Positions 1-3,478 of a stretch of 35,427 nt of DNA are shown piece by piece (positions within the stretch are counted from its first letter, which is position 1; each line of letters begins with the position of its first letter). This DNA comes from an uncultured Granulosicoccaceae bacterium. Its GTDB lineage: Bacteria > Pseudomonadota > Gammaproteobacteria > CALCKW01. Below the pieces are notes generated by a model. The model worked only from the letters and a program-made list of their open reading frames with translations, did no database searches and was not told the DNA's origin. Both the position numbers and the translations under genes were made by a program. Location: assembly GCA_937925815.1 (NCBI GenBank), contig CALAMQ010000009.1, positions 1 to 35,427 on the forward strand. Direction: 5' to 3'.

Positions 1-182
1 GAGCTCAGCTGTTGAGACACCAGACCGCAATGGTCAACGTCTATACCGCCGGGGTGATCAATGTAGACGCGCAGCGTAAGCCCGCCACTCGACTGTCCGA
101 GAAGGGCGCCAACGAATTCGAACCCCATCCCATCGACGACGGGCCCGACGATCGCTTTGATCTCTTGACTGACCGGCTGCAC
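1..182 (-). CDS. rimP: Ribosome maturation factor RimP (N-terminal part, runs off the window)
   Basis: RimP binds the 30S subunit and is needed for late maturation of the small ribosomal subunit. Only the first 60 codons are inside the window. They translate as a protein beginning (M)QPVSQEIKAIVGPVV, with the family pattern GMGFEFVG and then LRVYID, followed by GIDVDHC and a VSQQLS end, matching the RimP N-terminal domain. I place the start at a GTG at 182-180, preceded by GGAG with four bases between. An overlapping longer frame through the tRNA is not used. It sits just downstream of tRNA-fMet and its terminator. This is the metY-rimP-nusA-infB order known from E. coli, so nusA and infB would be expected beyond position 1. 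Identification is firm although partial. Confidence 0.9.
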   Translation of the reverse strand, partial: MQPVSQEIKAIVGPVVDGMGFEFVGALLGQSSGGLTLRVYIDHPGGIDVDHCGLVSQQLS

Positions 183-228
183 TGGTCTCCGCTTTGACCC
201 ATTGCGCTGAGTCTGTTGCGCCAACAAA

Positions 229-264: not shown

Positions 265-341
265 TGGTAGCGGGGGCAGGATTCGAACCTGCGACCTTCG
301 GGTTATGAGCCCGACGAGCTGCCAGACTGCTCCACCCCGCA
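265..341 (-). tRNA. metY: Initiator tRNA-fMet (anticodon CAT)
   Basis: This 77-nt tRNA has an encoded CCA. The anticodon loop CTCATAA is flanked by three consecutive G:C pairs (GGG/CCC), and base 1 (T) and base 72 (T) do not pair. Both are the hallmarks that distinguish bacterial initiator tRNAs from elongator tRNA-Met. The T-arm carries GGTTCGAATCC. It is followed by a terminator and then rimP, the position of metY in E. coli. Confidence 0.97.
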
Positions 342-354
342 CCTGACCTCGTCG

Positions 355-383
355 AGTATACGGTGTGTATTGGGCGTTATCAA
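355..383 (-). promoter_or_regulatory. Promoter of tRNA-fMet
   Basis: On the minus strand TTGATA (383-378) and TATACT (360-355) are separated by exactly 17 bases. Each hexamer matches the sigma-70 consensus at five of six positions. The -10 is followed by the GC-rich stretch CGACGAGG, typical of stable-RNA discriminators, and the tRNA 5' end is 14 bases downstream of the -10. This makes the tRNA transcriptionally independent of the gene upstream. Confidence 0.75.
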
Positions 384-406
384 GCGAAGAACGCAGTCTT
401 CAACTT

Positions 407-706
407 TTAAACCGGATTTCGACCGCTCCACAAGAAACGCCAGACGAAGCCCGGCACTGCAAAGACCGTGAACAGAAAAAACAAAATCACGTAAAACTCC
501 CAGTCCTGCTCATGCACCGTGCCCTGCAAGCGCTGCTCAATCCCAAGCGAAACCAGCAAATACACAAAAAACAACACAAACCACTCGGCCAAACAGACCC
601 AGGCTGACTTCACACCCTGCAGCGACCATGCAGCAAACACTCGATCACTGACAAAGGGCAGGCTCGCCAATCCGAAACCAAGTAACAACACCAGAAACTG
701 CGCCAT
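407..706 (-). CDS. DUF2818 family membrane protein (nuo-operon companion, here orphan)
   Basis: A 99-residue integral membrane protein with three hydrophobic segments, roughly residues 2-20, 40-60 and 70-92. Family features are the SLPFVSDRVF stretch after the first segment, KSAWVCLAEW, the EQ...DWEFY motif and the end VPGFVWRFLW. It matches DUF2818, whose function is unknown and which in many Beta- and some Gammaproteobacteria is encoded directly after nuoN of respiratory complex I. Here no nuo gene is present on either side. The start is placed at the ATG at 706. The frame continues to a TTG at 730, but that codon lies inside the T-run of the upstream terminator. The gene is enclosed by a terminator 22 bases upstream and the tRNA-fMet promoter downstream. 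Confidence 0.8.
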   Translation of the reverse strand: MAQFLVLLLGFGLASLPFVSDRVFAAWSLQGVKSAWVCLAEWFVLFFVYLLVSLGIEQRLQGTVHEQDWEFYVILFFLFTVFAVPGFVWRFLWSGRNPV

Positions 707-734
707 AGTGGCCACCCAAATTGCGTGCAAAAAA

Positions 735-756
735 AACCCGGGAAAGATCCCGGGTT
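735..756 (-). terminator. Rho-independent terminator after tRNA-Leu
   Basis: A perfect 9-bp stem (AACCCGGGA / TCCCGGGTT) with a 4-base loop is followed on the minus strand by eight T (736-729). It ends the folP-glmM-tpiA-secG-leuU transcript 32 bases after the tRNA and only 22 bases before the DUF2818 start codon. Confidence 0.9.
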
Positions 757-788
757 GCGATCACCTGTTAGACCAGGGAATCGAGTGT

Positions 789-875
789 TGGTGCCGACGG
801 CGAGACTCGAACTCGCACGACCATTAGGTCACTACCCCCTCAAGATAGCGTGTCTACCAATTCCACCACGTCGGC
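789..875 (-). tRNA. leuU: tRNA-Leu (anticodon GAG)
   Basis: An 87-nt class II tRNA with encoded CCA. It begins GCCGACGTGGTGGAATTGG, has anticodon stem CTATC/GGTAG around loop TTGAGGG (anticodon GAG, reading CUC and CUU), a long variable arm, and T-arm GAGTTCGAGTCTC. The acceptor stem GCCGACG pairs with CGTCGGC. It follows secG by 12 bases, as leuU does in E. coli, so it is probably processed from the secG transcript. Confidence 0.96.
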
Positions 876-887
876 TAATTTTTCAAA

Positions 888-1265
888 TTACTGGTTGATG
901 CTGGGCATCTCCGCATCCGCATCAGTATCGCTCTCCGCGCCCGCCGGCACAAGAGCTGGAACCTCTTCATCAGTTGGTGCTGCAGGCTCGACGACCGAGC
1001 CACCGAGTTCATCGAGCACGCTGCTTCCGCTGTCGCGGTTAGCTGCGAGGTAAAACAGGGTCACGCTGGTGACAAAAAACGCGGCTGCGAGCGCCGTGGT
1101 CATACGCGCGAGAAAATTTCCAGCGCCAGCAGCACCGAACACCGTTCCCGACGCGCCGCTGCCAAAGGCGGCACCGGCGTCTGCGCCTTTGCCGTGCTGG
1201 ATCAGGACAAAGCCGATCACCGCCACCGCAAGCAACACATGCACAACCAAAATCAGCGATTCCAC
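888..1265 (-). CDS. secG: SecG, preprotein translocase subunit
   Basis: SecG is the small inner-membrane subunit of the SecYEG channel. The 125-residue product begins (M)ESLILVVHVLLAVAVIG and has two membrane segments, about residues 2-22 and 52-71. Between them lies the conserved loop LIQHGKGADAGAAFG...SGTVFG. The C-terminal tail of about 50 residues is acidic and Pro/Ala-rich, as is common in the family. The frame is open further upstream but the start is set at GTG 1265, six bases after AGGAG. It lies 10 bases after tpiA and 12 bases before tRNA-Leu, within the glmM-tpiA-secG-leuU operon. Confidence 0.95.
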   Translation of the reverse strand: MESLILVVHVLLAVAVIGFVLIQHGKGADAGAAFGSGASGTVFGAAGAGNFLARMTTALAAAFFVTSVTLFYLAANRDSGSSVLDELGGSVVEPAAPTDEEVPALVPAGAESDTDADAEMPSINQ

Positions 1266-1275
1266 TTCCCGCTCC

Positions 1276-2028
1276 TCAAGAGGCCGCCGCACGCGCGATG
1301 GCCAGAAAATCCGATGCATTGAGCGACGCCCCACCAACCAGAGCGCCATCAATATCAGTTTGCTCAAACAACGCACTTGCGCTGTCTGGCTTAACGCTGC
1401 CGCCGTACAACAGCCGAACCGACGGCGCGAGCGACTCAGACAAGCCGCCTAGCCAAGCGCGAATTGATGCATGAACTGCCTGCGCATCCTGCGGGCTTGC
1501 ACTGCGCCCTGTGCCGATGGCCCAGACGGGTTCATAGGCAATCACGCACTTCGCAATTGCCGTTGTCTCCAACTCACCGAGCGCCGCGTCGAGCTGCTGC
1601 TGAACAACCGCCTCTTGACGCTCTTGCTCGCGTTCGGCGAGCGACTCGCCAACACACAAAATTGGTGTTAACGACGCCGATAATGCCTGCAACACTTTAG
1701 CTGCCAGCTCGCGATCTTGCTCCGCGTACAGCGTGCGTCGCTCCGAGTGACCAATTATCGCGTAAGCGCACCCGGCCTCTGCAAGCATCGCCGCGCTGAC
1801 TTCGCCAGTGAACGCACCACTCGATTCAGCACTGACGTTTTGCGCACCGAGTGCAACCGGACTACCAGCGAGCGCCTCGCGCACCGGATTGAGCAGCGTA
1901 AAGCTCGGGCACACCAGGAGGTCAGCTGACAGATCTGCAGACCCCGAGATAAGATCAGCCGCCAGTTCCAACGCGCTCTCGCGCGAACCGTTCAGCTTCC
2001 AATTGCCCGCTATTAGGGGTCGGCGCAT
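1276..2028 (-). CDS. tpiA: Triosephosphate isomerase
   Basis: This enzyme interconverts dihydroxyacetone phosphate and glyceraldehyde 3-phosphate in glycolysis and gluconeogenesis; it is cytoplasmic. At 250 residues it has normal family length. Visible active-site parts are N9 and K11 in AGNWKLNG, catalytic H94 in IIGHSERR, the base E166 in AYEPVWAIGTG (which also contains the flexible loop 6), and the phosphate-binding LLYGGSVKP and GALVGGASL stretches. It is encoded between glmM and secG, an arrangement common outside the enterics. A candidate promoter lies in the 112-base gap after glmM, so it may be transcribed both from folP and separately. Confidence 0.97.
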   Translation of the reverse strand: MRRPLIAGNWKLNGSRESALELAADLISGSADLSADLLVCPSFTLLNPVREALAGSPVALGAQNVSAESSGAFTGEVSAAMLAEAGCAYAIIGHSERRTLYAEQDRELAAKVLQALSASLTPILCVGESLAEREQERQEAVVQQQLDAALGELETTAIAKCVIAYEPVWAIGTGRSASPQDAQAVHASIRAWLGGLSESLAPSVRLLYGGSVKPDSASALFEQTDIDGALVGGASLNASDFLAIARAAAS

Positions 2029-2058
2029 GGTGTTACAAAGACGTCAGACAAGCGGTCA

Positions 2059-2087
2059 ATAATAAACACTATCGCCACGGGCCACAA
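2059..2087 (-). promoter_or_regulatory. Candidate promoter of tpiA-secG-leuU
   Basis: On the minus strand TTGTGG (2087-2082), 17 bases, then TATTAT (2064-2059), giving 3/6 and 5/6 consensus matches. It lies 30 bases upstream of the tpiA start, in an AT-rich patch inside the otherwise GC-rich 112-base glmM-tpiA gap. Proposed by eye only. Confidence 0.4.
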
Positions 2088-2140
2088 GCCTTGCCGCTAC
2101 ATGTCAGCTGGAGAACGCGAAACCAGCGCCAAGTCCGCCC

Positions 2141-3478
2141 TTAGGCGACTTCCCGGCGTACGGCGTCGGCGACTTGCTCACACAAGGTGTCGACCTGGTT
2201 GGCCACCTGCCCCTCGACCATCACGCGAACCAGAGGCTCCGTGCCCGAGGGTCGCAACAACACTCGGCCGGTGTCACCGAGATCGGTCTCCGCTTGTTTG
2301 ACGGCGTCCTGCACCGCTTGCAACTCGTCCAAGTTGACACGCTCGCGCATTGGCACATTAACGAGCTTCTGCGGATAGCGGGTCATACCCAGTTTGAGAT
2401 CACACAAACGCTGGCCCGATTGCACCACATAAGCGAGCACCTGCAACGCGGCGATGATGCCATCACCTGTGGTGCTGCAGTCCATATCGATCAGGTGACC
2501 GGACGATTCTCCACCCAGTTTCCAGCCGTTGGCGCGCATGAGTTCCAGCACGTGGCGGTCGCCGACTTTTGCGCGCAAGAATGGAATGTCCATTTGCCCA
2601 AGCGCGTGTTCGAGCCCGAGATTGGTCATGAGTGTGCCGACCACACCACCGTTCAAGGTGCCGGCCTCATGGTGCGCGCGCGCGAGCACATAGAGAATTT
2701 CATCGCCGTCGACAATACCGCCGAGCTCATCGACCATGATCAGGCGGTCACCGTCACCGTCGAGTGCGATGCCCATGTTGGCGCGCTCGAGCAATACGTG
2801 CGCACGCAAATTGTCAGGCGCGGTCGCGCCGCAGTTATCGTTGATGTTCAGGCCGTTTGGCTGCGCACCCTGGCTGATGACGGTGGCGCCAAGCTCATCA
2901 AAAACCCGGCGAGCAATGTCGTAACCGGCTCCGTGGGCCGCGTCGACCACAAGTTTTAGGCCGTCCAGGCGCATGCCGCTTGGAATCGTGCTCTTGCAGT
3001 ACTCAATGTATCGGCCGGCTGCATCGTGGATGCGCTCTGCACGCCCGAGTTCTTCTGAAGGCACAGTCTCCACACGCGAGCGCATCATCGCTTCGATGGC
3101 GTCTTCGGTGTTGTCGTCGAGTTTGAAGCCATCGGTGCCAAAAAATTTCACACCGTTGTCATAGTGCGGGTTGTGCGAGGCGCTGATCACAATACCGGCC
3201 GCGGCGCGAAATGTTCGCGTGAGGTAGGCCACTGCGGGCGTCGGCATTGGCCCGAGCATGTGCGCGGTGACGCCAGCTGAACTCAGTCCAGCCTCGAGTG
3301 CCGACTCAAAAAGGTACCCACTGATTCGCGTGTCCTTGCCAATCAAGACATCACGGTTGCCCTGCGAGGCCAAGACCTTCCCGGCAGCCCAACCCAGATG
3401 CAGCACAGTCGGCGCAGTCATTGGCTCATCGCCAACCCGGCCGCGAATTCCATCGGTACCAAAAAATTTCTTGCCCAT
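2141..3478 (-). CDS. glmM: Phosphoglucosamine mutase
   Basis: GlmM converts glucosamine-6-phosphate to glucosamine-1-phosphate, the step feeding UDP-GlcNAc for peptidoglycan and lipid A. The 445-residue product has all four signature loops of the alpha-D-phosphohexomutase family. They are the phosphoserine loop ISASHNP with S101, the metal loop DGDGDR at 240-245, the sugar loop GGESSGH at about 322-328, and the phosphate loop RPSGTEP from residue 409. The N-terminal [10 protein letters not shown] is typical of GlmM rather than of phosphomannomutase. The ATG at 3478 is preceded by GAGGG four bases away. It lies 33 bases after folP in the usual ftsH-folP-glmM order. Confidence 0.97.

Follow-up and report, generated by a model that had tools for sequence, protein, structure and literature searches.

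The closest described relatives of the gene studied here are the DUF2818 (PF10993) proteins encoded after nuoN of the complex I operon (nuoA-N), a genomic place that could lead annotators to call them complex I accessory proteins; our literature search under 'DUF2818' or 'PF10993' found no paper. Na+-NQR (nqrABCDEF-apbE) and complex I catalyse one and the same redox step but are not homologous. We analysed a window of 35,427 nucleotides, the whole of contig C9 in the assembly of an uncultured Granulosicoccaceae bacterium (G000; 3,555,601 bases in 183 contigs, estimated to be 99.13% complete), where a first-pass annotation had noticed an intact DUF2818 gene between two tRNA genes. This identification was borne out by the PF10993 profile (95.7 bits, E 2.6e-27, cut-off 25; profile positions 2-92 of 93) and by the ARAGORN tRNA calls (Table 1). 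The window protein shares family, length and conserved residues with the PF10993 proteins encoded after nuoN, and also the flanking genes once nuo is taken out. It differs from them in having tRNA-Leu upstream instead, with no nuo gene between tRNA-Leu(gag) and tRNA-Met(cat) of the window, and in belonging to a genome that gave no NuoD match. The window gene is therefore not right after nuoN, a place that is usual for PF10993 but not defining.

Table 1. Features at the DUF2818 locus of the window (positions are those of the whole stretch).
Feature	Position	Strand	Basis or remark
rimP, N-terminal part	1..197	-	cut by the contig end; compared with RimP of G001
tRNA-Met(cat)	265..341	-	ARAGORN; downstream border of the putative former nuo interval
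Promoter-like site TTGATA-17-TATACT, putative	355..383	-	ahead of tRNA-Met, in the gap after DUF2818
DUF2818 CDS	407..706	-	99 aa, intact; PF10993 profile match
Terminator-like hairpin and T run	735..756	-	in the gap from tRNA-Leu to DUF2818; alignable across G000, G001 and G002
tRNA-Leu(gag)	789..875	-	ARAGORN; upstream border of the putative former nuo interval
secG (presumed)	888..1265	-	upstream neighbour; reading frame, with tblastn relatives at the equivalent place
tpiA (triosephosphate isomerase, TIM)	1276..2028	-	Pfam PF00121

A class-wide sample of 370 genomes with completeness of at least 90% gave a PF10993 match at E 0.001 in 109 genomes, of which 77 were over the cut-off and 71 reached at least 59 bits. 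These 71 were counted as DUF2818 and the rest were dropped (20-28 bits, mostly frames of ~570-740 aa); when eight of the dropped places were fetched, the long frame was recovered in four, of which two presumably resemble sodium symporters and the others a potassium transporter and a glycosyltransferase, respectively. We read the neighbourhoods of the window, of the other 70 strong matches and of G002. In the 71 strong-match neighbourhoods, nuoN lay upstream of DUF2818 in 63 and no more than 400 nt away in 62, across many families, and a scan of named genomes found nuoN upstream in 29 of 30 confirmed loci, the exception being G002; the premise that DUF2818 normally follows nuoN is therefore correct. 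Among the 63 nuoN-linked loci, tRNA-Leu(gag) was seen upstream in 47 and tRNA-Met downstream in 29, counts that are partly limited by the length of the stretch fetched. Both were present in 20, which show the complete order tRNA-Leu-nuo-DUF2818-tRNA-Met, confirming that nuo elsewhere occupies the interval between secG-tRNA-Leu and tRNA-Met-rimP. In G087 and G347, nuo follows tRNA-Leu, and DUF2818 lies with tRNA-Met on a separate contig.

A NuoD (PF00346) profile search found no match in the window's 3.56-Mb assembly or in the three other genomes of its genus, G001, G002 and G003 (completeness of the four: 99, 96, 79 and 93%); these four made up all that the analysis covered of the order. The nuo-less junction tRNA-Leu-DUF2818-tRNA-Met is common to the window, G001 and G002; the spacer before the DUF2818 start codon measures 82, 81 and 79 nt, respectively, and contains an alignable terminator-like hairpin. 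Since the three genomes share the junction, the spacer sizes and the hairpin, one deletion is suggested. Genus-mate G001 is the clean stranded case, with a junction contiguous as far as nusA and with neither NuoD nor extra PF00361 genes: its PF00361 matches, like those of G003, are three in one place, in number and sizes as in the antiporter cluster of G000. In G003, 390 nt separate the two tRNAs, and this interval contains no DUF2818-like frame; DUF2818 has been lost there and NQR is present. Reading this interval as a DUF2818 pseudogene was rejected, as its similarity to three relatives was not above that of shuffles (global z 0.26, -0.06 and 0.85). Across the 71 strong-match genomes, NuoD was missing in five (G000, G001, G188, G220 and G299). 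The DUF2818 copy of G220 is frameshifted, that of G188 has fatty-acid oxidation genes on one side and a LuxR-domain ORF on the other, and no PF00361 genes were found in G188, G220 or G299. The NuoD-negative G081 was set aside as a false negative, with nuoA at its contig end.

The best overall explanation, to which we assign a probability of about 0.6, is that nuo was deleted and DUF2818 was kept for a function of its own, which may be an accessory role in NADH:quinone chemistry. In the lineage of the window, G001 and G002, a deletion would have taken out the nuoA-N operon that usually separates tRNA-Leu from DUF2818, and DUF2818 would have been retained owing to that function. The polarity of nuo loss is read from the distribution. 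As a separate observation, the NuoD-negative genome G011 (L166, ~500-3150 in gene orientation) has tpiA-secG-tRNA-Leu twice with a nuoA fragment between, which looks like the trace of a nuo deletion by rearrangement.

The first-pass annotation had proposed such an excision, with the last gene spared. The junction and the lack of NuoD in the window's assembly and its two genus-mates agree with this proposal, but the loss of DUF2818 in G003 goes against so simple a picture, and complex I loss in the window's own organism is no more than likely; the overall interpretation is only partly supported, since a NuoN fragment is present on C7, another contig of the assembly. The genome search for nuo thus returned no NuoD but did return part of NuoN. 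Eight PF00361 matches were found in G000: three on C89, in an Mrp-like (antiporter) cluster, two on C165, two on C62, a contig of 3.5 kb, and one on C7. C165 (L275) encodes a SulP-type transporter, a NuoM-like antiporter, DabA and a NuoL-like start; it is an inorganic-carbon uptake cluster and was ruled out as a relocated nuo. C7 (L272/L277) opens with a 3'/C-terminal fragment whose identity as NuoN is clear (230.5 bits); 77 nt further on come tRNA-Met, rimP and nusA, with no DUF2818. The window's organism might accordingly still have complex I, if C7 and the window come from one genome, with most of nuo left unassembled and a second tRNA-Met-rimP locus in the window. The tetranucleotide profile of C7 resembles that of the window (r 0.987) about as closely as that of the nqr contig does (0.982; G001 contigs, 0.88-0.92), so its composition is equally compatible with one organism and with a co-binned relative. 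The tRNA-Met-rimP copies of the window and C7, however, are 82% identical, close to the distance between the window and G001 (81%; C7-G001, 84%), which suits two species better. In addition, NuoD and the rest of nuo were not found in this nearly complete assembly, and G001 has the same junction without either NuoD or a surplus of PF00361 genes. We therefore regard retention of complex I as unlikely: C7 probably derives from a close relative that was co-binned and in which nuo persisted while DUF2818 was lost, and there is a reasonable likelihood, about two in three, that the window's own organism is without complex I.

Another NADH dehydrogenase, which had been predicted for such a cell, is present: contig C33 of the window's assembly carries a full nqrA-F operon with apbE. 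Na+-NQR genes do not adjoin DUF2818 in any locus read. NqrA was over the cut-off in all seven of G000-G003, G188, G220 and G299, and nqrA-F was complete in the six of these whose region was fetched (all except G002). Among NuoD-negative genomes, NqrA occurred in 5 of 5 with DUF2818 (the G220 copy being broken) vs 10 of 17 without it (p 0.13), a weak link in which G299 alone stands for f159 and G220 alone for f151.

DUF2818 was also found apart from nuo in a second order, that of G299 (families f159, f171 and f151). Of the 151 genomes searched there, 24 reached at least 80 bits with an intact DUF2818, and the gene is broken in G220 and G491. A full-length NuoD match (E <1e-100) is present in three of the 24 (G414, G494 and G495) and absent in 21, of which 15 are at least 90% complete. 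One of the 21, G430, has a partial NuoD match (2.7e-33) of a kind seen in many genomes of this order, which we take to be a hydrogenase; the other 20 have none. DUF2818 is hence not confined to complex I genomes, being intact without full-length NuoD in G000 (with the caveat of C7), G001, G002, G188 and these 21. In f159 and f171, mdh lies directly downstream of DUF2818 in all 12 loci read and tRNA-Leu directly upstream in 10 of them. In eight f159 genomes, 9-28 nt separate the tRNA from the start of the frame, and transcription through the tRNA therefore seems likely in that family, as judged from the spacing. In seven f151 loci (L283, L287, L290, L291, L293, L294 and L101), DUF2818 is preceded by a 498-499-aa ORF, which in G220, where it was tested, is a class II aminoacyl-tRNA synthetase; the gene has thus left the nuo site in these genomes.

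The complex-I-less copies are under purifying selection overall, with dN/dS of 0.05-0.38. The ratio was 0.205, 0.138 and 0.377 in the genus pairs, 0.148 as the f159 median (0.048-0.248; 31 unsaturated of 105 pairs), 0.082 in f171 (1 pair) and 0.098 as the f151 median (4 of 6 pairs), all of these being rough because dS is near saturation. Four nuo-linked pairs gave 0.080-0.127, and constraint in the genus may be relaxed since its values (0.14-0.38) are above these; other genes of the same genus gave 0.13-0.19 (tpiA) and 0.06-0.09 (secG). In 20000 runs of a neutral simulation, the open frame was kept in 262 and 431 runs for the two genus pairs simulated, and the best amino-acid identity was 0.25 and 0.45 vs the observed 0.72 and 0.65 (the latter comparison at dS 0.72). 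As the simulated identities fall below the observed ones, neutral drift is excluded for the genus pairs. At 20 family-conserved columns, defined at 85% or more in the 63 nuo-linked copies, 25 complex-I-less copies keep 464 of 495 cells, vs 1190 of 1259 in the nuo-linked copies and 265 of 1033 in variable columns. R22 is the commonest change (14 cells), and the window protein retains 19 of the 20 residues.

These data bear on two disfavoured alternatives. DUF2818 could be a decaying relic of a complex I subunit, as the broken copies in G220 and G491, the loss in G003 and the somewhat higher genus dN/dS might suggest; the fact that several complex-I-less groups have intact and conserved copies under selection, together with the simulation, makes this quite improbable. 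The other alternative, that this DNA persists because it spaces the tRNA genes or carries a signal, and not for its protein, could appeal to the short gap with its hairpin and promoter-like site, but is scarcely credible given the codon pattern, in which substitutions fall mostly at third codon positions (45 of 84, 54 of 103 and 43 of 83). In addition, other genomes lacking DUF2818 keep the two tRNAs 90-216 nt apart (G147, G317, G130 and G011), or 390 nt in G003, with no such frame. Because the complex-I-less copies are under purifying selection and retain the conserved residues, a function separable from complex I, as the first-pass annotation had conjectured, is very probable on these sequence comparisons.

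The window protein has three predicted membrane helices (residues 2-19, 35-61 and 69-96), and AlphaFold2 gave a confident three-helix fold (mean pLDDT 92.5, pTM 0.82). By the positive-inside rule, its basic C-terminus would be cytoplasmic and the conserved QDWEFY stretch periplasmic. A PDB sequence search at E up to 1 returned no match, including to complex I, and DUF2818-bearing complexes may be unsolved; PADLOC and PHROGs gave nothing useful.

As to what the function may be, we tentatively favour a role at the NADH-to-quinone step, because of the place after nuoN, the mdh neighbour in f159 and f171, and the presence of NQR where tested. DUF2818 would be a small three-helix accessory factor of the inner membrane, affecting stability, assembly or quinone-side conditions. 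If it could work with either complex I or Na+-NQR, it would stay useful when one enzyme replaces the other; such a portable accessory, serving two unrelated enzymes and kept through lineage swaps, is a rather speculative extension. The main rival is a general, non-respiratory role at the membrane, in protein insertion or in the homeostasis of lipids or ions, with the place after nuoN being a historical accident. The f151 copies behind a synthetase-like ORF and the G188 copy beside fatty-acid oxidation genes would fit this role, as would the non-significant association of DUF2818 with NuoD in the 370 genomes (66 of 329 with NuoD vs 5 of 41 without, p 0.29, kinship ignored). The best structural match found by VIA also points that way: at Z 5.5, it is 6wb9_6, a chain from the yeast ER membrane complex and presumably EMC6. 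This Z value, however, is in the tool's noise range, common for helical bundles, Foldseek found nothing at E 0.001 or better, and the nuoN neighbourhood is kept in the large majority of loci from many families, so that we consider a general role doubtful. Lineages without nuo but with DUF2818 under selection constitute a natural test of whether complex I is its sole client, pointing to other clients as well, and they offer a simpler background for finding its function, since a phenotype there cannot come via complex I.

Some weaker signals accompany these results. The EMC3_TMCO1 profile matched the window protein only (E 0.096). With E up to 1 allowed, PF19865 (DUF6338) gave weak, recurrent matches to 34 of the 71 DUF2818 members, the best having E 1.2e-4, but none to the window's own protein; the two families are possibly distant relatives by these profile scores.

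The terminator-like hairpin lies ~30 nt before the DUF2818 start in the three genus-mates, leaving no clear room for a promoter, and this counts against the best explanation. The hairpin scan found 4 sites vs 2.5 in shuffles, and the fold in G001 is unexceptional (z -1.1). The promoter-like site scan found 1 vs 0.2 in shuffles, with related bases aligned in three relatives. Finally, in three genomes without NuoD and without a strong DUF2818 match, G098 (L169), G134 (L178) and G232 (L175), nqrA-F directly follows tpiA-secG-tRNA-Leu, the usual place of nuo.
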